A stretch of 50,233 bases of DNA from a virus. A model generated the notes under the pieces. It had not been told where the DNA came from, ran no database searches, and was given only the letters and a program-made list of their open reading frames with translations. The DNA is taken from IMG/VR virus record IMGVR_UViG_3300044720_000027, positions 1-50,233 of that record; one strand, 5' to 3'. This document shows positions 6,700-38,274 of the stretch, piece by piece. How positions within the stretch are numbered: position 1 is the first letter of the stretch; each line of letters begins with the position of its first letter. Made by a program: the position numbers and the translations under genes.

Positions 6700-7601
6700 A
6701 ACGGCTCCGGGCTCAACGAGATCGTCCCGTCCTCGCCGACCTCGACGTGCAGGCCGTCGCTCAGGAACTTCTTGAAGGCCGCGCCGACCGCTGCCGACTC
6801 GAGGGCGGTGACAGCGAGCGGGTCACGCGTGCGTTCCTTGCCCTCGGCGTCGCGGGTGGCATACCCGACGATGGCGGCGGCGAGGTCGGGCTCGACCTCC
6901 TTGGCCTGGCAGTGCTTGGCGAACCCCTCGGCGAACTTCGCCGCGTCGAAGGGCGGGGCCTCGGCGGGGGGCTCCTCGACCGCCGAGTTGCGGTTCGGCG
7001 GTGGGCGACGCGTGCTCTGGGGCTTCTCGCCGGTCGTGGGGTCCATGCCGGCGGGGGGCTTCGGGGCATCGAGAGCCTTCGGGGCTGAACGCTTCGCGCT
7101 CTGGCCCTGCGCAATCTCTTGCTCGCGCTCCCAGTCCCGCTCCTCCTGAACCGGCAGGCTCACGTCGAACATGCGGCGCAGCACAAGGCACTCAGCGCGG
7201 GTGACTGCCATCTCCGGGCCGTAGAGCTTGTTTGTGCCGCTCTTGGCGTAACGCCCCGTCATGGTGATGGGGTTCGTCCAGTCCTTGCGGTAGATGGCGA
7301 CAGTGGCCCACCACTCGGTGCTCGTCTCACCTTGGGCGACGATGTCCTCGCCGTTGAGCAACTCGGAACGGTGGGCGATGTGCCACAACCCCTTGTGCGT
7401 GACGTACGGCGACCCCTGGATCAGGATCATGTGCTTGAGCACGGGGTCGAGCTCGTACTGCTGACAGACGAGGACGAGCGCCTGAACGGCGGGCTCGCGC
7501 GGGTCGAGCTTCAACGTCTTGAGCACCGCGGCGTAGTCGATGTCGACACCCGCCACCGCGCTGTTGCCGTTGGCGACTTTCTCTAGCGTCTTCGTGGTCA
7601 T
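6696..7601 (-). CDS. Single-strand DNA annealing protein (Red-beta/RecT-like)
   Basis: A 301-residue product. The first 190 residues carry the phage recombinase pattern: YELDPVLKHMILIQGSPYVT, KGLWHIAHRS, and a later AECLVLRRMFDV. A Pro-rich linker (about residues 190-225) and an acidic helical C-terminal domain follow. It would anneal complementary strands produced by the exonuclease encoded just upstream. ATG 7601 overlaps the exonuclease stop (ATGA), supporting coupled synthesis; the longer frame to 7676 lies over the exonuclease. Confidence 0.8.
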   Translation of the reverse strand: MTTKTLEKVANGNSAVAGVDIDYAAVLKTLKLDPREPAVQALVLVCQQYELDPVLKHMILIQGSPYVTHKGLWHIAHRSELLNGEDIVAQGETSTEWWATVAIYRKDWTNPITMTGRYAKSGTNKLYGPEMAVTRAECLVLRRMFDVSLPVQEERDWEREQEIAQGQSAKRSAPKALDAPKPPAGMDPTTGEKPQSTRRPPPNRNSAVEEPPAEAPPFDAAKFAEGFAKHCQAKEVEPDLAAAIVGYATRDAEGKERTRDPLAVTALESAAVGAAFKKFLSDGLHVEVGEDGTISLSPEPF

Positions 7602-8425
7602 GCCGCGTTTTCTTCCTCTTGTGCCGGGGCCGGGTTCCGCTTGAGCCAACGCTCCATTTCTTTGAGCCAGCCCCACACGGCGCGCAGGTGCAGGAAGTTC
7701 GCTACGGCCTGTTCGTCGGCGGGAACCTCAAGCAATTCGTAGGTTCCGTCGTCGTGGAGGTACAGCACGCCACACGCGTCGATCGGCGGAAACTCCGACC
7801 ACGGAATGATCTGTTCGACACCACCGAGCGGCGAGCGCACGGCGATGCCGTCGGAGCCTCGGAAATACGCGGCCAGCTGGAGGGTCGTCTCGACGGGGTA
7901 CCGCTGACCCGTCTTGATGTCGAGCCCGTACACGCGACCATCGCCGAGGCGGCCGAGCTTGTCGAAGCTGCCGCCGTAGCCGAGCGTCTCGTGGTTGTAG
8001 GCGATCCATTGCTCGCACGCGAGGCCCGTGGGGTTCTCGTCGGAGCAGAGGCGCTCATCGGTGAGCCACTGCGGGTCGTGCTCGACGTAGAAGCGCTCTA
8101 AGGCGTCCATGTAAGGGCCGCACTCGGGCGGGCAGTCGACGTCTTGACCCTTGGCCCACGTCAGCGCCAGGTCATGAACGAGCGTGCCCCTGTTGGCCTT
8201 GTCGTTCCAGACGCCGGCGTGGTGCTTGCGCAGCCGGTGGTACGCCTCGGTCTCGTCGAGGTGCTCCCACTGGTCACGGTGATGAATGGCGAACAACGCC
8301 GTCTCTTTCGCCGCGCCCCAGCTGAGGCCAGGCTTGTTCAACACGTTGAGGACCGTCGTCACCGACGGTGCCCACGCCTTCCCCTCGGCGGTGGTGACGT
8401 AGCGGCCCGACCGCGGGCGGCTCAT
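7598..8425 (-). CDS. PD-(D/E)XK exonuclease, RecB/Cas4-like
   Basis: A 275-residue nuclease. RGTLVHD at residues 79-85, GSFDKLG with Asp155, GLDIKTG with Asp169 and Lys171, and QLAAY at 183-187 are the ordered motifs of the RecB/Cas4-like family. It is expected to resect double-strand ends for the annealing protein next door. It lacks the four-cysteine cluster of true Cas4 in what I can see, although CSDENPTGLACEQW and CPPEC supply some cysteines. ATG 8425 overlaps the upstream stop (ATGA). Confidence 0.8.
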   Translation of the reverse strand: MSRPRSGRYVTTAEGKAWAPSVTTVLNVLNKPGLSWGAAKETALFAIHHRDQWEHLDETEAYHRLRKHHAGVWNDKANRGTLVHDLALTWAKGQDVDCPPECGPYMDALERFYVEHDPQWLTDERLCSDENPTGLACEQWIAYNHETLGYGGSFDKLGRLGDGRVYGLDIKTGQRYPVETTLQLAAYFRGSDGIAVRSPLGGVEQIIPWSEFPPIDACGVLYLHDDGTYELLEVPADEQAVANFLHLRAVWGWLKEMERWLKRNPAPAQEEENAA

Positions 8426-8610
8426 CGCGCCGTCGACATCTGACGCGCCGCTTTGCGGCTGCCGACCCCGATCCGGCGCAACCTGCCGGTGCAGCGCGTG
8501 CCGTGCACGTACACGGGGCACTGCGGCTCATGCAGGACGTTGCCGACGAGGTCGTGCGTGCTGGTGACCTCGTGGTGCTGGTTCCACTCGCAGCGGTAGG
8601 CGTAGGTCAT
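8422..8610 (-). CDS. Small Cys/His protein
   Basis: A 62-residue basic product from ATG 8610 overlapping the upstream stop. YRCEWNQHHEV and later CPVYVHGTRCTGRLRR give four potential zinc ligands, a zinc-ribbon-like layout. The Arg/Lys-rich tail suggests nucleic acid binding. Position immediately ahead of the exonuclease suggests a link with recombination, by context only. Confidence 0.55.
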   Translation of the reverse strand: MTYAYRCEWNQHHEVTSTHDLVGNVLHEPQCPVYVHGTRCTGRLRRIGVGSRKAARQMSTAR

Positions 8611-8936
8611 GACGCACCCAGCGCGAAGTCAGCGTCGCGGACCTCGGCCATGCACGCGCCGCACAGATCGCCGCTCGCACGGACGTACCCGCGGGAGTCG
8701 GTGTAGTCCAGGCGGTCCCCGCCGCAGTCACGGCACGGCTCGGCGAAGTGGGGGTCGACCGCGTGGGTGTGCGGCTCGGCGCCGCCGATGTGCCAGTGCA
8801 TCCGCTGTGCGGGGTCGCTGGCGTGGGTGTGGAACATCGGGTCGCCCGAGGCGAACCCGTAGATCTCGCTGTCGGGCTCGCTGCCGCCGTTGATGACGTC
8901 CTCGGCGCAATCTACGAGGAACTGATCGAAGCTCAT
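8607..8936 (-). CDS. His-rich protein with C-terminal zinc finger
   Basis: A 109-residue product from ATG 8936 (ATGA). A helical start (MSFDQFLVDCAEDVI) is followed by a His-dense middle (FHTHAS, MHWHIG, PHTHAVDPHF) and CRDCGG...CGAC, a four-cysteine zinc finger. The His-rich middle resembles segments of the two following genes. Function unknown. Confidence 0.6.
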   Translation of the reverse strand: MSFDQFLVDCAEDVINGGSEPDSEIYGFASGDPMFHTHASDPAQRMHWHIGGAEPHTHAVDPHFAEPCRDCGGDRLDYTDSRGYVRASGDLCGACMAEVRDADFALGAS

Positions 8937-15151: not shown

Positions 15152-15898
15152 TCAGTCCTTGTAGGCCCACTCGGAGGTGATGGTGACCGAGACGCCCGGC
15201 TCGTAGACCTCGAGCACAGCGAACTCGGCCTCGCCGTGGGTGCTCTCGAACTTCTCGCCGGGGAACGTCCCACCGTGGCGACCGGGACCCTGCTTGTACT
15301 TGCCGTCGCGCCCGAAGGTGCCGACGTAGCAGTCCACGACGAGGTCAGGGTTGTCGGTGCCACCGGTGATGCCGACGACGACGGTCACCTTGTCGTAGAC
15401 GCGGTCACCGCCCGGGCTCGCACCCTTCTGCGGGATGGGCACGGTCACCGGATTGTCGAGCGTCGCTGTTCCCAGCGGGCCAAATCCCACGTCATCGTCC
15501 TTTCGTCGCGCGGCCACAGCGAACACGGGCATGGCGTCGTACCAGCCCTCCCACTGCTCCCACGGTTGGGCGTGCCACTTCTCCGATGCGATTGGGAAGT
15601 GCATGAAGTGCTTCTCGAAGACGGTCTTCATCGGGCCGTAGTTGCCGTCGTTCGGATGCACGTCCGCGGCCAGCGACATCGCCTCGCCGTATGGGACCGC
15701 CTCGTGATTCGACGTGCCGGGCCTGTTCGCCGGGTTGTAACCGGGTAGTCGTCGCTGCCACCCGTCGTACAACTCCTGCTGCCGCTGGCTCGAACGCCAA
15801 CCCGACTCGACGTAGGCATCGGCCTCGACCAGCGCAGCAAGCAGCCGTTCCCGCCACGCCGGGTGAATGTGTGCGAGGACGTCGGGGAGCGGCAGCAC
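15152..15898 (-). CDS. Endolysin: M15 (VanY-like) peptidase
   Basis: A 248-residue peptidoglycan peptidase. SGWRSSQRQQELYDGW, GTSNHEA with His65, AADVHP with Asp79 and EKWHAQP with Glu106/His109 give the zinc ligands and catalytic Glu of the M15 D-Ala-D-Ala/L-Ala-D-Glu family. Residues after about 130 form a separate beta-rich domain with repeated Thr/Val strands and GGTDNPDLVVD, possibly for wall binding; I do not recognise it. GTG 15898 overlaps the stop of the lysozyme gene, so two lysins with different bond specificity are co-made. Confidence 0.8.
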   Translation of the reverse strand: MLPLPDVLAHIHPAWRERLLAALVEADAYVESGWRSSQRQQELYDGWQRRLPGYNPANRPGTSNHEAVPYGEAMSLAADVHPNDGNYGPMKTVFEKHFMHFPIASEKWHAQPWEQWEGWYDAMPVFAVAARRKDDDVGFGPLGTATLDNPVTVPIPQKGASPGGDRVYDKVTVVVGITGGTDNPDLVVDCYVGTFGRDGKYKQGPGRHGGTFPGEKFESTHGEAEFAVLEVYEPGVSVTITSEWAYKD

Positions 15899-21519: not shown

Positions 21520-21801
21520 CTACTCATGACGGATGCCGATCACGAGGGGGTCGACGCCGTTGAGCATCAGGACGAAGACCTGATCGCCGAACGTCGGGGC
21601 GTAGCTGTGGATCGGGACGCAGTTGGGGATCGGCGTCGAGGGATCACTGGCAAGCGTGATCGTCACGCGCAGCGGTGGCCCCGACTGCAGCGCCGTGATG
21701 GAACCGAGTCGCAGGTTCATGTTCGAGCTGGGCTCGGCCAGGCGCGCCAAGCGACGGGCGGCGCGGGTGAAGGCGCTGGCGGTCTCCGGTGCCACCGCCA
21801 T
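21520..21801 (-). CDS. Small tail/baseplate-associated protein
   Basis: A 93-residue product from ATG 21801 (TGATG). A basic helical N-terminus is followed by beta strands (LRVTITLASDPSTPIPNCVP ... GDQVFVLMLNGVDPLVIGIR). The pattern resembles small OB-fold-like proteins found after baseplate hub genes in actinophages. Position between hub and fibres supports a tail-tip role. Confidence 0.55.
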   Translation of the reverse strand: MAVAPETASAFTRAARRLARLAEPSSNMNLRLGSITALQSGPPLRVTITLASDPSTPIPNCVPIHSYAPTFGDQVFVLMLNGVDPLVIGIRHE

Positions 21802-22973
21802 CAGCGGATTCTCCGCTCGCGCGCCGTGAGCACCATCTCGGGCGATCCCTCAGGGCGTAGGGGCAGCGTGTAGCGGTCGAGGAATACAGAGGTGTCGAGC
21901 CCGGAGCGCCCGCGATAGACCCGCAACACGTCACTCGGCTCATGCACGGGATTGGGCATGACCGCGAACTCGACGGTCTCAGCGACGCCGAGCTTGCGGT
22001 AGAGACGCCCGCGCGCGCTGGCTTCGGCATCGGCCTGAAGACGCGCCCTGGGATCGGTGACGAACTCCGGCACTTCCTTGTAGGGGCCGAACCGGTAGGT
22101 GGGCGAGGTGGGGTCGTCGTCCCATGCCTCGCCCCTGGGCGGACTCACGTTGGACGTGTGCTCGCCGGTGACGATGATCCCGTTCGGGCTGCTATCGCTC
22201 TCCTGTGCCCTCGTGTAGTGCATGACCGTGGCGTCGGTGCCCTCGTCGTAGGACCAGGTGATCGGGACATTGGGGTCGCGAGGATTCGGGATCGGCCTGA
22301 CCGTGAAGATCCCCAGCGCGTCGAAGTACGCCTCGAGCCCGGCAGACTCGGCGATGGCCTGGATGACCCCCCACGGGTCTGTGCCGGGCTCGAGAACCTG
22401 ACGGTCGGTGGTGCCACCCTCCGATGTCGAGATGTTCATCAGCCAGTTGGGGTTGCTTCCGCTCGCCGCCTCCGGCACGCGGTTGACGTAGAGGGCGACG
22501 ATGGCGGCCCACGCCGGCCCCTTGTCCACCACGTATGTCTTTGTCGACTTCGCACGGGCCACGCGACGGGACCGATCAGTGCCATTGACGGTGAGGGTCG
22601 CACCCTGAGGCCCGTCGCTGAAGGCTGCGCGAGAGATGCCGTAGGTTCCCTGCGGAAACATGTCCGCGATGCCGTGATGCGCCAGTCCACACCAGACGCG
22701 CAGCTCGTTGCCCGACAGTGGGGACAGCAGTGACCGGCCACTCGCCGGCAACAGCGTCCCGATTGGGTCGAGGAGCACAAGGTTCGACAGCGTCCAACGC
22801 GCCGAGCCCGAAGCGTCCGCTGTGATCGAGCCCCCGTCGACGAGCAGGAAGGTGTCCTCCTGCTGGGAGTCGGCGATCTTGATGCCGTCAGCGTTGAGCA
22901 ACTCGACGAAGCTCACGAGCTCCGCACCGTCGGAGAAGGCCCGCTCGTAGGAGTCGCTGCGCGGGTAGGCCAT
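21801..22973 (-). CDS. Minor tail protein, DUF5047-like hub
   Basis: A 390-residue product from ATG 22973. MAYPRSDSYERAFSDGAELV followed by strand-rich VDGGSITADASGSARWTLSN and a long central region with GTDPWGVIQAIAES and VRPIPNPRDP matches the DUF5047 type of minor tail protein in actinophages. It is thought to be a baseplate hub component. Order after the tape measure and distal tail genes is the usual one. The longer frame to 23183 is a shadow. Confidence 0.75.
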   Translation of the reverse strand: MAYPRSDSYERAFSDGAELVSFVELLNADGIKIADSQQEDTFLLVDGGSITADASGSARWTLSNLVLLDPIGTLLPASGRSLLSPLSGNELRVWCGLAHHGIADMFPQGTYGISRAAFSDGPQGATLTVNGTDRSRRVARAKSTKTYVVDKGPAWAAIVALYVNRVPEAASGSNPNWLMNISTSEGGTTDRQVLEPGTDPWGVIQAIAESAGLEAYFDALGIFTVRPIPNPRDPNVPITWSYDEGTDATVMHYTRAQESDSSPNGIIVTGEHTSNVSPPRGEAWDDDPTSPTYRFGPYKEVPEFVTDPRARLQADAEASARGRLYRKLGVAETVEFAVMPNPVHEPSDVLRVYRGRSGLDTSVFLDRYTLPLRPEGSPEMVLTARERRIR

Positions 22974-23665
22974 CAGACCGGCTCGGCGATCATGTGGAAT
23001 CGCGGAAGTTCGTCGGGAACCGCCACATCGCGGAGCAGGGCGACGGTTTCCTCGGGCGCCTCGATCCCGAGGTCGGTGAAGGCGGCAAGGAACGCCGCCG
23101 ACAAGGTCGGGGCGCAGCGCTGCCAATAGGTCGGGTGGCCCGCCTTCTCGTACGCCGTCTTCGACAGCGCCTTCTTGTCCCAACTGAGATGCACGGCTCG
23201 CCGCTGCTCGGGAGACAGCACCAGCAGATCGACGAGGTACGCGCCAGCGGTGAAGAGTGCAACGGGCAGGTCGTCACCGCGTGCGAGCGACTGATCGAGT
23301 TGGATGCGGCCCTCGTCCCATGCCACTGCCGCCACCACCCGGTCGTCATCGGCGACCGGGTACCCGCGCGCGTGGTGAGCGCGACGACGCGACGACGGCT
23401 CGACCTGCTCACCGATCGGCTGCATAAGCCAGTCGGTGACGACGTCCTTCGGCACGCCTTGGTAGCCCTGTCGGAGGTAGCACTCCGCTTCCAGGCGCTC
23501 CGCCCCGGCGAACGACGACAGGTCGGCCCACGACAGCGGCACCTCACCGTTGGGACGTACGAGCCAGGCGACGCCCCACTCCAGGGATTCCCACGGATAG
23601 GTGCAGCGCGGCCAGGTGCGGGCGAGGGCGATGCTCTGCGCTTCGCTGTTGAAGGCGTGGATCAT
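22973..23665 (-). CDS. Minor tail protein
   Basis: A 230-residue product from ATG 23665 after GGGAGCG. It begins MIHAFNSEAQSIALARTWPR, has an acidic, mostly helical body, and its C-terminal half ends FHMIAEPV. Its location between a long tail-tip protein and the hub makes it a minor tail component. No specific family recognised. Confidence 0.55.
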   Translation of the reverse strand: MIHAFNSEAQSIALARTWPRCTYPWESLEWGVAWLVRPNGEVPLSWADLSSFAGAERLEAECYLRQGYQGVPKDVVTDWLMQPIGEQVEPSSRRRAHHARGYPVADDDRVVAAVAWDEGRIQLDQSLARGDDLPVALFTAGAYLVDLLVLSPEQRRAVHLSWDKKALSKTAYEKAGHPTYWQRCAPTLSAAFLAAFTDLGIEAPEETVALLRDVAVPDELPRFHMIAEPV

Positions 23666-23675
23666 GGCGCTCCCA

Positions 23676-26612
23676 TCAACAAGTCCGCGATTCGGCAGTG
23701 CTGAAGTGCAGCGAACCCGGAGTGTCCTCGGGGTACCAAAAGCCGAAACAGTCGGGCTGGAACGCCTGGAGGATGTTGGTGGCGAGGACGGGGGCACCGG
23801 GATACTCCTGGTGCCAATTGCTGAAGCTGAACGGGGGGCCGGCGGCAAGCCCGAACCACGAAGGCAGGATGAAGTCGGCCAACCAGCTCTGCCCGTACGC
23901 AACACCGACAGAGTTCACAGGGTCACACGCCTCCATGAACGCGCGCCGCCCCGTCCCGTCGGTGTGCACTGACCAGTTCCCGATCTGGGGGTCGGTCCGC
24001 CAGCCGTCCGGGTCGTCACCGGGTATGCCGGGATTGACGAGCATCTCGATGACCTCGTGCGCAAAAATCGTAGAGTCCTCGTAGTACACGTTGTTCGCAT
24101 CGCGGGGCTGACTCTCATTGGCAAGTCCCCACACGCTCAGCCGTGCCCGCGGTACGGCGTTGCCAGTGGTGTGGTAGCCACCGCCGCCACCGTCGACAAT
24201 TTCGTACCACCAGCCATCAGCCGGTGGGGTGCCGAAGACGAGCTCGATCGGGATGACCGAACGGCGATACGCACCCCAACGCGGGACGACGATGCTGTTG
24301 ACGTACTCCTGGGTGTCGGCCGCGAGCTGGTTGTACTGGGCCTGCGAATAGCGAGTGGAGTGGTTGACGATGTAGATCCGCTGCGTCGACGGTGGCGTGC
24401 CTCCCCCACCGCCGGGCGCGGGGTCGACATAGAACGTTGCCTGCGCCGTTCGCCCCGAGGTCACGCCGGTCGCGGTAATGACGCGACCCCCGAGGCTGCC
24501 TCCCTCGAGGTGGACCGTCGCCGACGCCGAGCCGCCTGACGCTGTCGTGCTGTTCGGGACGACGTTGCCCCCGTTCGTGCAGGTGAAGACGATCTGCTCG
24601 TTCCCCTGGAAGTTGTAGGCGTAAAGCTGAAAGCTCTGCCCCAACGGGGCGCGGGGAGTACTCGCCTGCAAAGTGGCCGCAGCCGGCGGCGCAGCGGCGA
24701 CGACGTTGATCGCAGCTTGACCGAACAGCCCGCTTGCGTCACCGATGGCGGTGATCTCCGCCGCGCCGGCGGAGGTGGACGCAGACACCGTGACCGAGAC
24801 GGAGAACTCGCCCGCCGAGTTCGCGTTGACGCCGGAGGGGCTCAGTGCGGGACCGCGGTTGATGACGAGAGTCACATGCTCATACGGCGCGAAGCCAACG
24901 CCGTGCAGCGTGGTTGCCGACCCGGGGTTCATCGACGACGGGTTCGCCGTCAGTGAAGTCTGCGGTGCCGTCGTGACGTCCGGGGCAATGTCGCCATAGT
25001 CGAACCGGTTCAGGTTCTCAGTGGGCCGAACGACTTCGACCCAGTCAACGGTGATGGAATAGGCCGAGCGCACGGGACGCTGGGAGTGCAGTTCCTTCTG
25101 GGCGAGCACCTGCTCCCAGTTCCGTTCTTCACCGACGCGCAGGTAGAAGTGGTCGCTGAGCGGCGAGTCCACGCGCAAAGTGCGTTTGCGAGTGAGCAAC
25201 GAATCGACCGCCGCCTTCTCCGTCTCGTTCAACACCATGATCTCGAGTCGGCCCTGCGCACCTCGATTCCCACCCGACAGCACGAGGAACACGCCGTTGT
25301 CGAGCGGCTCGTAGCGACCTTGGGCTTCGCGGCGCGTGAACGGCGCTTTGGTCACCCGAACGGCGAGGTTGCCGTTCTCCGACGACGGGAAGCTGGCGTC
25401 ACGCAGGAAGTACGACTGCAGGAAGCAATCACCGAACGCGGCACTCGAAGGCGCGCCGTCGACCCAGTGCCCGCCGGACGCGGCGATCGCGATCGCGCGG
25501 TAATGGTTCCGTCCTGCCACTACGTCGTAGTCCCACGCGGTGATCCGGCCACTGTCGTCGGGGAACTGCAACGAGCCTGCTGCCTGCACGACCTCCCACG
25601 CCAAGCCCTCATCGGAGCGCTCGAGGCGCACGTAGGAGGCGACAGGCGTGCCCGCCCCTCGCGTTATCTCGATCTTCATGCGCCCATGACGCACGTCGGG
25701 CGTCAGCATCAGCGAGGGTGCCGCGGGACGGGGCAACTGGATCATGAAGTCGGTCCGCGACCAGTCCGACCAGTACGGGTCTTCACCCGCGATCGGCTGT
25801 GTCGCCCGCACCCGCGCGGTATAGGGAACATCGTTGTCGAGCGGGGCCGTCACCTGCGCGACACGGGCAAGCGAGTTGAAGACCTCACCGGTATCGAACA
25901 CCGGCACCGCGCCGTCGAAACCCAGCCCTCCGAACTGGTCGGCGGACCTGAACACCTGTATCTGGTAGCTCTGCTGAGGATCGTCGTCGACGTCGGCATA
26001 CGCCCACGACACCCACGGCCGGGTCGTCGAGATGGTCCCGCTGGGGCTGAGCGCACTCACCGTCGGGCGCAGGTCCACCGCGACCTCGAGCCACAACTCG
26101 CGCACAAAGACACCGGCGGTCTCCTGGGCCGCCTGCCACGAGGAGTTGTAGAGGATGAGCTGCAGCGACATGGCGTTGATCGTCTCGGCGTCCCAGGGAA
26201 CGAAGCTGCCGTCGCTGTCAGCTCGCCCTGGATGCGCGTTCCCGGCAGAAACCGCGCCGCCTACGAACTCGTCGTGGTAGTTCCAGACATTGCCGCCGTA
26301 GTTGGGGTTCAGCTCGGAGATGCCATCGAACGCTCCCATCAGCACAGCGACGTTTTGCTGACGGTGAGCCGAGACCTCGAACTCGACCTCGATCACCGGG
26401 CGAACCCACAGAATGCGCGTGTTCGGCGGGAGCACCAGCCCGGCAAGCTGAAAGAACGCCATCATGTCGGGGCCGTCTGTCCCTGCCCGCCATGCGTAGG
26501 TCGTCGTAACGTCGTCGTTGAGATCTGCCAGCACGTTTCCGCTGGTCGAGCGCGGAGGGACCGGTCCCAGCTCCACGTTGGCGAGACCAAGCTTGTAGAC
26601 GGTGACGCCCAC
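23676..26612 (-). CDS. Tail-tip protein with putative zincin-like C-terminal domain
   Basis: A 978-residue multidomain protein. The N-terminal half has beta-sandwich domains of fibronectin type (for example RPWVSWAYADVDDDPQQSYQ) around a distal-tail-like region. Residues about 560-730 hold two Ig-like repeats (SMNPGSATTLHGVGF). After a Gly linker, residues about 735-978 match a widespread uncharacterised family: a VVPRWGAYRR segment, GGGYH, FAHEVIEMLVNPG with HEVIE at about 851-855, and MEACDPVNS ... ADFILPSWFG. HExxE is a zinc-site pattern. Such a domain at the tail tip could cut or bind surface proteins. GTG 26612 overlaps the previous stop. Confidence 0.7.
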   Translation of the reverse strand: MGVTVYKLGLANVELGPVPPRSTSGNVLADLNDDVTTTYAWRAGTDGPDMMAFFQLAGLVLPPNTRILWVRPVIEVEFEVSAHRQQNVAVLMGAFDGISELNPNYGGNVWNYHDEFVGGAVSAGNAHPGRADSDGSFVPWDAETINAMSLQLILYNSSWQAAQETAGVFVRELWLEVAVDLRPTVSALSPSGTISTTRPWVSWAYADVDDDPQQSYQIQVFRSADQFGGLGFDGAVPVFDTGEVFNSLARVAQVTAPLDNDVPYTARVRATQPIAGEDPYWSDWSRTDFMIQLPRPAAPSLMLTPDVRHGRMKIEITRGAGTPVASYVRLERSDEGLAWEVVQAAGSLQFPDDSGRITAWDYDVVAGRNHYRAIAIAASGGHWVDGAPSSAAFGDCFLQSYFLRDASFPSSENGNLAVRVTKAPFTRREAQGRYEPLDNGVFLVLSGGNRGAQGRLEIMVLNETEKAAVDSLLTRKRTLRVDSPLSDHFYLRVGEERNWEQVLAQKELHSQRPVRSAYSITVDWVEVVRPTENLNRFDYGDIAPDVTTAPQTSLTANPSSMNPGSATTLHGVGFAPYEHVTLVINRGPALSPSGVNANSAGEFSVSVTVSASTSAGAAEITAIGDASGLFGQAAINVVAAAPPAAATLQASTPRAPLGQSFQLYAYNFQGNEQIVFTCTNGGNVVPNSTTASGGSASATVHLEGGSLGGRVITATGVTSGRTAQATFYVDPAPGGGGGTPPSTQRIYIVNHSTRYSQAQYNQLAADTQEYVNSIVVPRWGAYRRSVIPIELVFGTPPADGWWYEIVDGGGGGYHTTGNAVPRARLSVWGLANESQPRDANNVYYEDSTIFAHEVIEMLVNPGIPGDDPDGWRTDPQIGNWSVHTDGTGRRAFMEACDPVNSVGVAYGQSWLADFILPSWFGLAAGPPFSFSNWHQEYPGAPVLATNILQAFQPDCFGFWYPEDTPGSLHFSTAESRTC

Positions 26613-26836
26613 TAGCCGCTCGAGCCCTGCGGGGTGGAAGGCTCGACGACGGTGACCGTCGTGCCCTCTGTGAGTACCTGAGTCGCGCCGTCGTCGTAGA
26701 TCACCGACACGCCGTCACTCGACCAGGTAACCGATCGCACGAGGCGGGGCGCATACACCTGCATCCCCGGGCGCAGCCTGGCAACGGTGATCTCGCGCTC
26801 GTGACGGACGGGCTTGTCGGGCGGGCGGGCGGGCAT
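26612..26836 (-). CDS. Small protein between tape measure and tail-tip genes
   Basis: A 74-residue product from ATG 26836 (TGATG). Beta-rich: RLRPGMQVYAPRLVRSVTWS then VSVIYDDGATQVLTEGTTVT. The fold looks like a small barrel. By position it may be a tail accessory factor; no family recognised. Confidence 0.5.
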   Translation of the reverse strand: MPARPPDKPVRHEREITVARLRPGMQVYAPRLVRSVTWSSDGVSVIYDDGATQVLTEGTTVTVVEPSTPQGSSG

Positions 26837-29800
26837 CACGAACCTCCCAATGCCTGGTCGATTTGATCGACGAGCGTGTCGGCAAGAACGACGGACACGT
26901 TCTCGGCGATCGACTGCATCCGGTTCTCGAACTGGTCGAGGTCACCGACGGTGCCGACCTCGGAGGAGAACTGCACCGCGCCGGGCGAGACCGTCACGCT
27001 GATGGTGCGCGCGCCCCCGCCTACCGGCTCGGGTCGACCGGTGCCGTTGTGGGCGAGGCTGTACCCCGTCGGCAGATACCCGCCGTTGTCGTAGCTATGG
27101 GCGGGCAGGGCGTGGAAGCCACCCGCGCCGTACCAGTGGTTTTTGCGCCAGAAGCTCTCTGCGCCGAGCGGGTCGGTGTAGCGGTTCTTGATGTAGCGCG
27201 CCCCGGCCTCGGCCTGCTGAGCAGCGTCGTGGCTTCGGGCGATGCCGGTGCCCGCCCACGTCGAGTCGAGGAACTGGAACAAGCCGAACGCGCCCGATGA
27301 CGAGTTGAGGCTCTCGGGGTCCCAGGAGCTTTCGTGGTACACGATGTAGCGGGTCGCTCCCCACTGGTCGCCGTCGCCCCAGCCGCGCTGACGGAACGCC
27401 GGGTTGACCTTGGCCTCCATCGCAGCGGGGCCGGCGAACTCGCCCTGTGTGCCGCGTCCACCGCTCGACGCCAGCGGCGCGTTGCGAGAGACATCCTCGG
27501 GAACGTCGCTGGACCCGCCACCGGTGACAGCGGACGGAACCGCCGCCGCGGCGCGCGTGGACTCCTGCGCCGCCAGGAACGCCGCGCTCATCTCCGCGAT
27601 GCTGGCCTTGGTCTTCCCGACCGACTGGTTACCGGTCTGCTGAAGCCACCAGTAGTAGTTGCTGAAATCGGGGTCGTTCGGGAGGTTCATTCCACCGCCC
27701 GCGAACATGCCGATGCGCTTGCCGGTTTCGGTCCAGATCGCCTGGGCGCGTGGGCGGCGCCAGTCATTCGCGAACGGGATGTACGCCTCACCTTGAGTCT
27801 CGGGTTCGTTCCAGACCCGGATGACATCGCCCGCGCCCATCTGTGCGACGTGGCTCTCGTAGAGGTTGCCGGCGGCGTTGCCGATCTTGCCGCCTCCGAC
27901 CGTCGGCGTGCCCTGCCCGCCGGCCGTCGCGATGTCGACTCCGGGCTTGTAGACGTTCTTGGAGATGAAGTCGTCGACCGCGCCCTGCACGCCCTTGAGC
28001 CAATCCGCGAGCAACGTCTTGGCCTGCTCGACGGTGATCCCGAGCGTCTGCGCGAGGTTCCTCGACATCTCGTCCATGTGCGTGGCGACGTAACTGGCCG
28101 ACTCACCGAACTTGGCGTCCATCACCCTGGCGAACTCGGCCGTGCTGAAACTCTCGTCCTGCAACATCAGCTCGAACATGGTGCGGATGTCCGCTGAACC
28201 CTTGTCCTTGAGCGACGCCGCGATGGCTTCTCCCTTTTCGCCCATCGCGCCGAGCTTCTGTGCAAACTCGGGGAACTGTTCGTCCGCTATGTGTTGGAGG
28301 TTGGACGCGAACTCCTGGTGGTGGGCGATGTTCTCCCGCAGCTTGGCGACGATCTCGTCGTAGCTGATCCCAAGTTCAGCCAGGCTGGTACTCGTCTTGG
28401 AGTGCCCGCCCTGCTCCTCGGTCTCGGCGTTGGTCAGGTCGTTGGACGCCTGCTTCACCGAGAGCTTCGCCGTTTCGAGCGCGCGCTCTGCGTCTTCGAC
28501 GGCGCGGATCGCTTCGCTCTGCGGTGACCGGGCGCGGGTCAGTTCGTCCTCGGCCGTGGTCAGCGAGTTCGTCGCATCCTTCTGGGCGGCGCGGGCGTCG
28601 CGCACGTCGAGCTCGGCGGCGGCGATGTCCTCGGGCTTCGCCCCGGCGCGCAGTTCGTTCAGCCGCTCCTGGGAGGTGATCAGTTCGTTCTGGGCCGAGA
28701 CTTGGCCGAGCAGCGCCTCGCGCAGCGCGAACTCCGCCTCTTGGATTCCCGCCGCGCTGTCGACTTGGCGGGCGGTGTTCAGCCCCGCCTGCGCGTCGGT
28801 CAACCCGAAGGCGGCGCTCTGCTGGCCCAGCATCGCCTCCTGAAGCGCCAGTTCGGCCTCTTGGAGATCCAGCGCCGTGTTGGCCGTGCGGGCGCTGTTG
28901 AGCCCGTTCTGTGCGTCTGTGAGGCCCAGGGCGGCCTGCTGCTGTGCGAGGAGGGCCTCGTTCAGCGACAGCTCGGCCTCGGCGATGTCGAGCGCGTGGT
29001 TGTTATTGCGGGCGTCGTTGAGTCCGTTCTGCGCGTCCTCGGCCGAGAAGGCTGCCTGCTGCTGGGAGTTGAGGGCCTCGCGCAAGTTCAGGTTCGCCTC
29101 GGTCAGGTCGCGTGGCGTGCCGTGGTCCTGGGCGAGGAACAACTGCTCCTGCGCGTCGGCCACGCGCAGCGCCGCACGCTCGGTGCCGATCATGGCGTCG
29201 GAGAGCTTCAGTTCCGCTTCAGCGAGCACGCGGGTAACCGACACCCGCCGCAGGTCTTCGAGGCGCTGCTGTGCCCGGTACACGGAGATCGCTGCGCGCT
29301 CGGTGCCGAACATCGCCTGTGACAACTTGATCTCGGCGTCGACAACTGGTCGGGTCGGGTCGGCGTTGCGGAGCTGGTTCAGGTGCTCCTGCGCGCGGGC
29401 CACGGAGATGGCGGCGCGCTGGGTGCCGAGTTGGGCCTGCGCCAGTGACATCTCCGCGTCGGCGACGGCGCGCGACGGGTCCTTCGCACGTTCCTCGTTC
29501 AGCTTCTTCTGCGCATCGGCGACAGACTTCGCGGCGCGCTCGGAGCCGAGCTGCGCCTGTGTCACGGAGATCTCGCCCGAGGTGAGTTCGGTCGCCTTCG
29601 GGCCGGCGCGCAGGTCGGCGAGCTTCTTCTCGGCCGAGGCAAGGTTCAGGGCCGAGCGCTCAGAGCCGATGCGGGCGTGCTCGAGCTTCAGTTCCTTCTC
29701 GGAGATATCCGCACCGGACGCCAAGGCGGCGCGGGCGTCGGAGAGCTTCTCCTCGGCGTCGGCAAGGCTGTGTGTCGCGTCCTTGACGCCGAGGCGGGCC

Positions 29801-31944
29801 TGTTCGAGTTGAATCTCGCGGTCGGCCGCGGTCTTGCCCTTGGCGCCACCGGTCTCGCGCTTGCTGGCGACGAGTTCATCGAAACCACGGCTGGAGATGC
29901 CCTGGAACGTGCTCGCCGTGGCATTGCTGAGCGCGTCCTGTGCGTCCTTCTCGGCCTTGAGTTGCGCCGCGGTCGCCTCACTTGCCGCCGCCTTCTCGTG
30001 CTCGGCTTTGATGAACGCGATGGTCTGGGTGACGCTGTCGGCGGTGGCCTTCGTGAAGTCGATGCCAAGGACCGACGCAGCTTTGAGAACCTCGTCGGAT
30101 GATGCCCCGGTGGCACGCTCCACAAGAGCGACCTGCGAGATGAAGCTGCGGTACTTGCCGCCGGTGTTGTCGAGCTCCTTCTGGAGCGTCTTGAGGCGAT
30201 CCGCCTCGGTCGTGCGCGACCCGCTCTCGAAGATACGGGAGGGGTCAGCGATTCGGTTGCGGACGCCCGCCTCGATGCGATTCAGCAGCCCACCGCCACC
30301 ACGCTCGTGCTTGTTCTCCTCCTCGACGCGTTGGCGCTGTAGAGCAATGGCTTCGTTGAGGTCGCGGATGTAGTGCGACAACCCGGTGTCGCTCGACAGG
30401 TCCTTATTCGCTCGGGCCTGGGCGATGATGCTCTGCGTCAGTTCGTCGTTCTTGCGCTTGGCGGCAGCGGCGTGCTGCTGAAGCTGGATGAACCCGAACA
30501 CGGCGGCAGGGATCGCCAGACCCGACAGCGCGCCGCCGAGAGCGGACAAACCAGCACCGAATCGGCTGGTCGAGGTGACCGCACCGGCGCTCTCCGCCTC
30601 GAACAGGGCGAGCTGCGTGGCGGTCCCCGCTGCCTCCGCTCCGAACAAGGTCAGTTGTTCGCCCGCGGCGGCCACGGTCGGGCCAACAGTGGAGAAGGCA
30701 GCCGCCACCGTCGACACCCGAGTAGCTACCGCCTCGAAGCCAAGGGCACCGAGCGAAAGAGCCATGTTCCCCAGACCTGCGACGGTCTGAGCGAGCGCCG
30801 GCAGCAGCGACGCGATGTACACCGCCGCCAGGGCCTTGACAATCACCGCGTTCTCCGCCAAGAACCCCGAGATCCCGCCGAGCGCCTGGGCGAGAACATT
30901 GAGCGCCCCGATGATCGGACCACCCGCCAGCTGAGCGAACGCCGACGCCACCGGACCGACCGCCTGGCCGATCGAGGAGATGATCGGTCCGAGGTTCTGG
31001 AACGTCTCCGCAAGTCCTTGGCCGAATGGGGTCAGCGCGACCTGCAGCTGCTGAAAGGCGTCGATGCCTTCACTCCCGAGGCGCCCGAGGAAGTCGAGCA
31101 GGTCAAGAATCGCGGGCTGCGCCTTCAAGCCCACGTCGGCCGCGAAATTCGACAACCCGCCCTGGATGGCGCGCAGCCGGTTCGCCAAACCGCCGCTCGT
31201 GCGTTCGAGGTCGCCGTGCGCGTCGGACAGCTGCTTGGTGATGAGCGACGCCCGCGCCATCACCTTTTGCTGCTCGTTCAGTTGCCCGGTGCCGTTCGAC
31301 AGCCCGAGAGAGAGCGCCTCCTGCTTGACCGCGTCCTCGGACAACAGCACGCCGAAGCGGCGCAGCGGCTCGGCCTCGCCGACCAGGCCCGAGCGGATCG
31401 ACTGCAGCGCCTCGTCGAAGCTGACGTTCTTGAACGAGGACAGGTCGGCGGCGAGCTTGACGAACTGCGTGCTCATCTGCGCCGCCGCCGGCGCGGTCAG
31501 CCCCGCCGCTTTGGTGATGCCGCCGAGCCCGTTCGCCGCTTCGAGGAACGTCACCTTGTTGGTGCCGAACGTCTTGCCCATCTGGTTCGCGGAGTTGACG
31601 ACGGCGGCAGCGGCCGGGCCGAACGTCGCCCCGGTGGCGGACAACTGCTCGTTGAGGTCGGAGCCGGCGATGGCGATGGAGCCGAGGCCGCGGGCGATCT
31701 TCTGCGCGCCCTGGATGAAGACCTGGCCGGCGAAGAACCCCGTCGCCGTCTCCGCCACGCGCTGCAGCGAGCCCGACATCAGCGCAGCGGACACCGACGA
31801 GCGCGAGAACCCGTGCGACGCCTGGTCGCCTGCGCGCTCGACGGTGCGGCCGAACTGGATCGTCTTGGCCGCGGACTGGTCGAGCGCCGCGTTGTAGCCG
31901 CGGTTGTTCGCGGTCAGCGAAACCGAATAGACCCTTTCAGGCAA
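26836..31944 (-). CDS. Tape measure protein with repeats and transglycosylase domain
   Basis: A 1702-residue protein, the longest in the window, that sets tail length. The N-terminus (residues 1-250) has phage-tail-length motifs (GSDLNEQLSATGATFGPAAA, RRFGVLLSEDAV). Hydrophobic helices lie at about 330-500. Residues about 707-1140 are tandem coiled-coil repeats of roughly 33-36 residues. Residues about 1535-1608 form a soluble lytic transglycosylase-like domain (YHESSWDPESLNSSSGAFGL) that would open peptidoglycan during DNA entry. The start is TTG 31944, behind GGAGG. Confidence 0.85.
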   Translation of the reverse strand: MPERVYSVSLTANNRGYNAALDQSAAKTIQFGRTVERAGDQASHGFSRSSVSAALMSGSLQRVAETATGFFAGQVFIQGAQKIARGLGSIAIAGSDLNEQLSATGATFGPAAAAVVNSANQMGKTFGTNKVTFLEAANGLGGITKAAGLTAPAAAQMSTQFVKLAADLSSFKNVSFDEALQSIRSGLVGEAEPLRRFGVLLSEDAVKQEALSLGLSNGTGQLNEQQKVMARASLITKQLSDAHGDLERTSGGLANRLRAIQGGLSNFAADVGLKAQPAILDLLDFLGRLGSEGIDAFQQLQVALTPFGQGLAETFQNLGPIISSIGQAVGPVASAFAQLAGGPIIGALNVLAQALGGISGFLAENAVIVKALAAVYIASLLPALAQTVAGLGNMALSLGALGFEAVATRVSTVAAAFSTVGPTVAAAGEQLTLFGAEAAGTATQLALFEAESAGAVTSTSRFGAGLSALGGALSGLAIPAAVFGFIQLQQHAAAAKRKNDELTQSIIAQARANKDLSSDTGLSHYIRDLNEAIALQRQRVEEENKHERGGGGLLNRIEAGVRNRIADPSRIFESGSRTTEADRLKTLQKELDNTGGKYRSFISQVALVERATGASSDEVLKAASVLGIDFTKATADSVTQTIAFIKAEHEKAAASEATAAQLKAEKDAQDALSNATASTFQGISSRGFDELVASKRETGGAKGKTAADREIQLEQARLGVKDATHSLADAEEKLSDARAALASGADISEKELKLEHARIGSERSALNLASAEKKLADLRAGPKATELTSGEISVTQAQLGSERAAKSVADAQKKLNEERAKDPSRAVADAEMSLAQAQLGTQRAAISVARAQEHLNQLRNADPTRPVVDAEIKLSQAMFGTERAAISVYRAQQRLEDLRRVSVTRVLAEAELKLSDAMIGTERAALRVADAQEQLFLAQDHGTPRDLTEANLNLREALNSQQQAAFSAEDAQNGLNDARNNNHALDIAEAELSLNEALLAQQQAALGLTDAQNGLNSARTANTALDLQEAELALQEAMLGQQSAAFGLTDAQAGLNTARQVDSAAGIQEAEFALREALLGQVSAQNELITSQERLNELRAGAKPEDIAAAELDVRDARAAQKDATNSLTTAEDELTRARSPQSEAIRAVEDAERALETAKLSVKQASNDLTNAETEEQGGHSKTSTSLAELGISYDEIVAKLRENIAHHQEFASNLQHIADEQFPEFAQKLGAMGEKGEAIAASLKDKGSADIRTMFELMLQDESFSTAEFARVMDAKFGESASYVATHMDEMSRNLAQTLGITVEQAKTLLADWLKGVQGAVDDFISKNVYKPGVDIATAGGQGTPTVGGGKIGNAAGNLYESHVAQMGAGDVIRVWNEPETQGEAYIPFANDWRRPRAQAIWTETGKRIGMFAGGGMNLPNDPDFSNYYWWLQQTGNQSVGKTKASIAEMSAAFLAAQESTRAAAAVPSAVTGGGSSDVPEDVSRNAPLASSGGRGTQGEFAGPAAMEAKVNPAFRQRGWGDGDQWGATRYIVYHESSWDPESLNSSSGAFGLFQFLDSTWAGTGIARSHDAAQQAEAGARYIKNRYTDPLGAESFWRKNHWYGAGGFHALPAHSYDNGGYLPTGYSLAHNGTGRPEPVGGGARTISVTVSPGAVQFSSEVGTVGDLDQFENRMQSIAENVSVVLADTLVDQIDQALGGS
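28520..29823 (-). repeat. Tandem coiled-coil repeats inside the tape measure gene
   Basis: About 11-12 degenerate repeats of roughly 33-36 codons. The unit has the form AEL.L.EA..G.Q.AA..V.DAQ..L...R, each probably one helix of a hairpin or coil. The DNA copies are diverged but clearly related. Number of repeats would change tail length. Confidence 0.7.
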
Positions 31945-36898: not shown

Positions 36899-38274
36899 GG
36901 TGTGGTCTGGCTCGCTCCCACTAGTGCCCGGGTGACGGACGGGCCGATCGTTGCCCCGGTGGATGAGCGCCCGGTGGACGACACGGTCACGGATGAGCCC
37001 ATAGTCGAGGTCATCGGCCCTCGCAGGACCCGAACCGCTTCGACGATCACGGCGCCGATGAGCGCCACCGCTGCCACGGTGGCCGGCGACACGGTGGCTG
37101 ACGCCGTGATAGCGGGGACCCCGATCGACGCAGATGCGACGACGGTGACCGGCGTGGCCTCTGTGGCTGCCCCGACAGTTGGCGCTCCGATGACTGCGAC
37201 AGCGATGACCGTCGCGGGGGTGACCGTGGCGTCTGCGCTCTGAGAGGGCACGCCGATGACGGCGACAGCTACGACGGTGCCAGGAGCCACTTGGGCGGAC
37301 GCTGAGACGCCCGGGCTGTCGATGGTGGCAGAGGCGACGACAGTGGCCGGAACGACCGTCCCTGTGGCGCTGAGCCCCGGTACGCCGATGCTGGCGACGG
37401 CGCCCACGGTGACCGGGCTGACGTCGGCGGACGCTGACACCGATGGCGTGCCGATCGAAGAGACGGCGAGCACCGTTGCGGGCGCCACCGACGTGCTCGC
37501 CACCAGGGCGGGATTCCCGATCGAAGCGACCGCGAGAACTGTCGCCGGCGTGACCGTGGCCGACGCTGTCGCCCCGACAGCAGGCGTGCCGATGGACGAG
37601 GTTGCTTGCACCGTGTCGGGTGCCACTGACGCCGAGGCGGTGATCGTCGGGGCACCGACTGAGGCGACAGCGCTGACGGTTGTCGGGGCAACGCTCGCTG
37701 AGCCGGTGACCGCGGGAGTCCCGATGGTCGCCATTGCGGCGACGGTCGCTGGCACCACGCCCCCCGATGCGGTGACCGCTGGGACGCCGACGGACGCCAA
37801 AGCGTCGACCGTTGCCGGCATCACGCTGGCAGTGGTGACAACGGCCGGGGTGCCCACGGACGCGACACCGGCCACGGTCGCGGGCGTCACTGAGCCGCTG
37901 GCGGTCACCGCTGGGGTCCCGACCGTCGCCATCGCTTCGACGGTTGCGGGAACCGCGGCCGTGCTCACCGAGACGGTGGGGCTCCCGATCGACGCGGTCG
38001 CATTGACCGTGGCGGGAGTGACTGAACCCGAGGCCGTGATGGCGGGGGTCGCTATACCCGCAGTGGCGACAACGGTTGTAGTGGACAGCCCGCCCGTCGC
38101 GCTGACAGCCGACGCCCCGATCGTGGCGACGGCGGCCACGGTGGCGGGGGCGACGGTCGCTGATGTTGTGACGGCGGGTACACCTACAGACGCCGTCGCG
38201 ACGACCGTGTCGGGGGTGACCGTCGTATCGACGTTTCCCCAACCCGCGAGGAACCAGTGTTTCCAGATCGGCAT
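36895..38274 (-). CDS. Protein of eighteen 22-residue repeats
   Basis: A 459-residue product. After a short Trp-rich head (MPIWKHWFLAGWGN) it has about 18 tandem repeats of 22 residues (about residues 16-411) of the form SVTPATVAAVASIGTPAVTA, then a Ser/Thr/Gly-rich tail. Alternating small and hydrophobic residues suggest a regular beta-solenoid or stacked strands. It overlaps the connector start by ATGA and follows a fibre gene. A surface fibre on the head or neck is possible. No family name can be given with confidence. Confidence 0.65.
   Translation of the reverse strand: MPIWKHWFLAGWGNVDTTVTPDTVVATASVGVPAVTTSATVAPATVAAVATIGASAVSATGGLSTTTVVATAGIATPAITASGSVTPATVNATASIGSPTVSVSTAAVPATVEAMATVGTPAVTASGSVTPATVAGVASVGTPAVVTTASVMPATVDALASVGVPAVTASGGVVPATVAAMATIGTPAVTGSASVAPTTVSAVASVGAPTITASASVAPDTVQATSSIGTPAVGATASATVTPATVLAVASIGNPALVASTSVAPATVLAVSSIGTPSVSASADVSPVTVGAVASIGVPGLSATGTVVPATVVASATIDSPGVSASAQVAPGTVVAVAVIGVPSQSADATVTPATVIAVAVIGAPTVGAATEATPVTVVASASIGVPAITASATVSPATVAAVALIGAVIVEAVRVLRGPMTSTMGSSVTVSSTGRSSTGATIGPSVTRALVGASQTTP
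36985..38230 (-). repeat. 66-base tandem coding repeats
   Basis: The DNA encodes the 22-residue repeats in direct tandem. Copies differ at many third positions, so they are old and under protein-level selection. The opposite strand also stays open through much of the array, which explains long plus-strand frames there. Boundaries are approximate. Confidence 0.7.

Follow-up and report, generated by a model that had tools for sequence, protein, structure and literature searches.

A soil-type phage with a probable metal-dependent protein-cutting domain joined to its tail-tip protein

Background

That tail-tip proteins can carry accessory domains is well established, an example being the evolved Dit (distal tail) proteins (PMC10688798, PMC7291167, PMC9128512), in which the accessory domain sits on the tail-tip ring protein beside the tape measure. 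The extra modules of evolved Dit are carbohydrate-binding modules (CBM).

A second group relevant to this study is the zincins, defined by an HExxH motif in the active-site helix, which follows a mixed sheet in the upper subdomain, and by clustered ligands that bind zinc. Metzincins, among them the matrixins, are defined by HExxHxxGxxH/D and a Met-turn beneath the metal, and gluzincins by HExxH and a downstream Glu. Zincins with altered HExxH motifs are known and their roles are unknown (PMC3650047).

Here we describe a 978-aa phage protein encoded in a 50-kb viral record (50,233 nucleotides, the whole of which was analysed and is called the window). Like evolved Dit it lies beside the tape measure and bears an accessory domain, a likeness of position and of having such a domain only; whereas the extra modules of evolved Dit are CBM, the domain found here is predicted to be zincin-like.

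Genomic context of the tail-tip protein

The late module in the window is of siphovirus type and lies on the minus strand, in the order terminase, major head protein, major tail protein, tape measure, the 978-aa gene, a 230-aa gene and a hub-like minor tail protein. The 978-aa gene (23676..26612, minus strand) directly follows the tape measure gene (26836..31944, minus strand), whose product has a transglycosylase-like segment near residues 1516-1608. The minor tail or baseplate hub protein (21801..22973, minus strand) is about 30 % identical to the corresponding minor tail proteins of the Rhodococcus phages discussed below.

Between the tail-tip and hub genes, positions 22973-23665 (minus strand) encode the 230-aa protein, which has no match in Pfam, PHROGs or phages and no counterpart at the same position in the Rhodococcus phages. 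Elsewhere in the window, 15152-15898 (minus strand) gives a weak match to VanY-type D-Ala-D-Ala carboxypeptidases (E = 0.054) and is possibly an endolysin, and ARAGORN calls a tRNA-Ala (AGC) at 37333-37426 (minus strand) within a same-strand reading frame of 666 aa; the call is possibly a false positive.

For the body of the tail-tip protein (residues 1-527; 25032..26612, minus strand, by homology and synteny), similarity to the tape-adjacent minor tail protein of Rhodococcus phages REQ1, Jflix2, Madraxi and Shagrat is weak but significant. Residues 138-527 are homologous to REQ1 Orf79, Jflix2 gp21 and Madraxi gp26, and the order tape measure, 978-aa-type protein, hub is common to the window, Jflix2, REQ1 and Madraxi. 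The homologous body and the same gene order place the protein among the tape-measure-adjacent minor tail proteins of the REQ1/Jflix2 type and bear out the tail-tip location given in a preliminary description of this DNA.

The Rhodococcus phage proteins differ in having a large internal insertion and in ending where the added segment of the window protein starts. REQ1 Orf79 is matched by residues 138-367 and 399-527 of the window protein, and the match runs to residue 1322 of 1326, four before the stop. From this end point we conclude that the last ~450 residues, which run from a weakly Ig-like stretch through a Gly/Pro linker to a 240-aa domain, are, as judged from the alignment, a C-terminal addition relative to these relatives. 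GC3 is even along the gene (0.83/0.83/0.80), and because of this uniformity we see no sign of a chimeric assembly.

The preliminary description also placed fibronectin and Ig-like modules in this protein. Profile support for them is weak, the best match being to a Rha78A-type Ig domain at residues 193-286 (E = 6e-5), which falls short of Pfam's cut-off. Residues 552-735 (24408..24959, minus strand) are a probable Ig-like spacer followed by the Gly/Pro linker, assigned from the sequence and from sub-threshold profile matches: an Ig-like match at residues 554-613 (E = 0.014) and a Big_1 match at residues 671-727 (E = 0.94).

An unnamed HExxE family in viruses and bacteria

Residues 743-978 (23679..24386, minus strand) form the C-terminal domain, which a profile match assigns to an HExxE family and which AlphaFold and Foldseek suggest to be zincin-like. 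With its sequence alone as query, phages, plasmids, viral contigs, PDB, Pfam, PHROGs and NCBIfam yielded no relative. Only a DNA scan with a degenerate pattern encoding HE[hydrophobic]2EMx[AV][DN]P brought the family up; it returned 89 viral stretches, and nearly all of these encode proteins of 220-300 aa that can be aligned along the full length of the domain.

The preliminary description was right that the domain matches a widespread uncharacterised family: a profile made from 76 relatives, with the window protein left out, recovers that protein with E = 2.2e-23. The same profile finds the window domain with E = 1.6e-16 when HExxE is masked and with E = 6e-8 when all three main motifs are masked, while the best of 50 shuffled controls reaches 1.0 bit. 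Membership is indicated by this motif-masked match and by the presence of all three of GxH, HExxE and ExxD. The whole domain can be aligned between the family and the window copy at 20-30 % identity, and both have GxH, HExxE, ExCD and DFxxPxWF. The window copy differs in having N in place of the family's D before the conserved P and in a longer loop after HExxE; it is fused to a tail protein, whereas the other viral members are free-standing proteins of 220-300 aa.

The family is present in more than 100 viral contigs. From genome contigs we kept 80 loci from Acidobacteria, Burkholderiales, Nitrospira, Gemmatimonadetes, Actinomadura, Chitinophaga and others, and the family is also found in Proteobacteria. 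It is sparse in genome samples, occurring (with the seed included in each count) in 9 of 199 genomes of the phylum of the Acidobacteria seed, 2 of 296 of that of the Actinomadura seed, 4 of 299 of that of the Caballeronia seed and 1 of 148 of that of the Spirosoma seed. For the members tested, no Pfam, PHROGs or NCBIfam model scored above chance and no PDB chain matched by sequence.

No other tail-protein fusion was seen among all viral loci fetched; the scans for relatives used motif patterns, and fused copies without those motifs may exist. The only other long viral frame among the fetched loci is one that bears an intein. The apparent 682-aa fusion in locus L015 (1-2049) was rejected, as it owes its length to an intein directly before the GYH motif (PDB intein matches, E to 3e-8). 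The relative interrupted at this place by an intein, which has an HNH-like segment, was noted at L015 and L124. Inteins typically occupy functional sites, and the position before GYH counts in favour of the hydrolase reading set out below. By eye, from their composition, the long frames at L181, L200, L205 and L244 were put down to read-through from upstream and were not taken as real fusions. At L210 (about 7404-8720), on a gammaproteobacterial contig, the frame opens with a separate domain-like stretch (MELKLIRKEFTDQGAIGELYVNGEYECLTFEK...) and is possibly a genuine fusion.

Most phage relatives are free-standing, begin at the first strand of the domain and have no evident signal peptide, which would suit a domain that acts inside the infected cell or in assembly, for example in tail-protein processing, and merely rides on the tail gene. 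We consider this very improbable for the window protein, in which the domain is a C-terminal addition to a structural tail protein and the related tail proteins without it are apparently complete.

Conserved residues of the putative metal site

The preliminary description quoted the C-terminal sequence correctly and numbered its residues one too low: AHEVIEML begins at residue 851, which gives H852, E853 and E856 for the HExxE motif (24045..24059, minus strand), located in a predicted helix. Just before this helix, a predicted strand carries the GYH motif (24171..24179, minus strand), whose H814 is invariant in the family. MEACDP begins at residue 893 and contains the E-x-C-D motif (E894, D897; 23922..23933, minus strand), a candidate third ligand. 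FILPSWF begins at residue 914 (23853..23873, minus strand) and serves as an independent probe for the family.

Across 77 diverse members seven columns are invariant; among them are GxH and the E of ExCD, neither of which belonged to any search pattern. For HExxE, conservation in the first set is circular because the first pattern demands HExxEM. This circularity was removed by a scan of viral contigs with a different motif, SDFVLPxWF, which returned 19 viral stretches; 18 were read and all 18 are family members. HExxE is found in every stretch in which the region is present, and the M that follows it varies. In a profile alignment of the new distinct sequences, the H, E and second E of HExxE were each conserved in 13/13, and so were the H of GxH (13/13), the E/D of ExCD (13/13) and the D (13/13). 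No family member with HExxH was found.

These patterns lend moderate support to a putative metal site at HExxE/GxH/ExCD, with H814 and E894 (plus D897) as further conserved candidate ligands beyond the HExxE of the preliminary description.

Distant Acidobacteria relatives found by profile search keep GYH, HExxE as SHEIGEW and ExGD as LEVGDP; some are apparently secreted, with signal peptides judged by eye. At locus L240 (772-3393; Acidobacteria genome G001), GGYHSA, SHE(I/L)GEW and LEVGDP occur in two distant relatives that stand in tandem and are apparently secreted, accompanied by a partial third; they represent a separate secreted branch without a Pfam peptidase match.

Conservation at this site bears on the alternative that a zincin-like fold binds without cutting and gives an 'evolved' tail-tip protein a module for receptor or glycan binding, much as CBMs do on evolved Dit. 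The fusion lies at the position where other siphophages bear binding modules (PMC10688798, PMC7291167, PMC9128512), and the second His of HExxH is replaced. Set against this, the E853 position and all putative ligands are invariant across the family, free-standing proteins included, and are kept in the fused copy. If the module were used for binding alone, their loss would be expected, and we thus hold a binding-only role to be rather unlikely.

Predicted fold

AlphaFold models were obtained for the window domain (55 sequences; pLDDT 73.7, pTM 0.76) and for a central family member (77 sequences; pLDDT 88.5, pTM 0.80, core 92-99). Both begin with a strand and a long helix, continue with further strands, the GYH strand and one more strand, and then reach the HExxE helix, an order which in these models fits the order of strands and helices in the upper part of zincins.

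Foldseek searches of the PDB with both models returned mostly matrixin, astacin or adamalysin-type proteases among the top 50, with E between 0.025 and 0.3. No match reached E < 1e-3, the best metalloprotease having E of about 0.03 and a target-normalised TM of at most 0.45. When predicted structures of viral proteins were searched, metalloproteases made up most of the top 15, and phage proteins with the annotations Peptidase M10 and Zn-dependent protease were among them. Of the Foldseek matches, a SAM hydrolase at rank 1 (rmsd 16) was judged a chance or partial match, and beta-hexosaminidase matches were judged likewise. The zincin domain suggested in the preliminary description thus finds moderate agreement in structure prediction, with a zincin-like fold and HExxE in the active-site helix (best E about 0.03).

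In its predicted structure the domain resembles the matrixins and other metzincins (MMP, karilysin, astacin, fragilysin) in the upper-subdomain strand and helix order and in the active-site helix. It differs from them in its C-terminal part, in having HExxE where they have HExxHxxGxxH/D and in showing no profile-level sequence similarity; a profile-profile comparison with Acidobacteria M10 metzincins gave no significant alignment and nothing beyond the helix motif. HExxE takes the place of the zincin HExxH in the predicted helix; the metzincin motif is replaced by HEVIEMLVNP in the window domain and by xDP in the family; and of the gluzincin features the downstream invariant Glu (E894) is present and HExxH is absent. 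Taken together, the models moderately support a zincin-like fold that is by definition not a metzincin.

Proposed function

We hypothesize, with slightly more confidence than doubt, that the last 240 residues form a metal-dependent hydrolase of zincin-like fold, most likely a peptidase, displayed at the tail tip to cut a host-surface protein or peptide. Upon a fold that is supported by prediction, we infer the metal, the catalysis, the substrate and the infection step as follows. The metal would be held by H852 and E856 of HExxE, aided by E894 of ExCD and perhaps by H814 of GYH, and E853 would act as the general base. The conserved tape-adjacent tail protein may have gained the domain at its end, joined through a flexible arm that is weakly Ig-like and contains the Gly/Pro linker, a placement from which several copies would hang outward from the tail tip. 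There it would cut a host-surface protein or peptide during adsorption or wall penetration.

It is conceivable that a metal-dependent hydrolase at this place would instead act on peptidoglycan stem peptides or another non-protein polymer and so ease passage of the tail across the wall. Small peptides can be substrates of zincin-like folds, the tail-tip location would suit such a role, and a few endolysin-like genes lie near standalone viral relatives. Yet the tape measure of the same phage already has the transglycosylase-like segment, another of its genes resembles a VanY-type peptidase (with a marginal E-value) and the family has no consistent link with lysis genes; a neighbourhood scan of the standalone viral relatives gave no consistent functional partner of any kind. 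On this balance we find a cell-wall substrate distinctly unlikely.

Beyond the window protein, we tentatively propose that its relatives may constitute a new metallopeptidase family with a metal site of HExxE, GxH and ExCD. The family would be spread widely among soil viruses and bacteria, and at least one siphophage would bear it on the tail tip as a virion-borne surface protease. If true, this would define a hydrolase family that is large, uncharacterised and unusual in its metal site, and would give the HExxE family its first physical context, the virion tip. An enzymatic type of module would then join the accessory domains known on tail-tip proteins, and the phage described here would offer a directly testable case of a surface protein being cut on entry.
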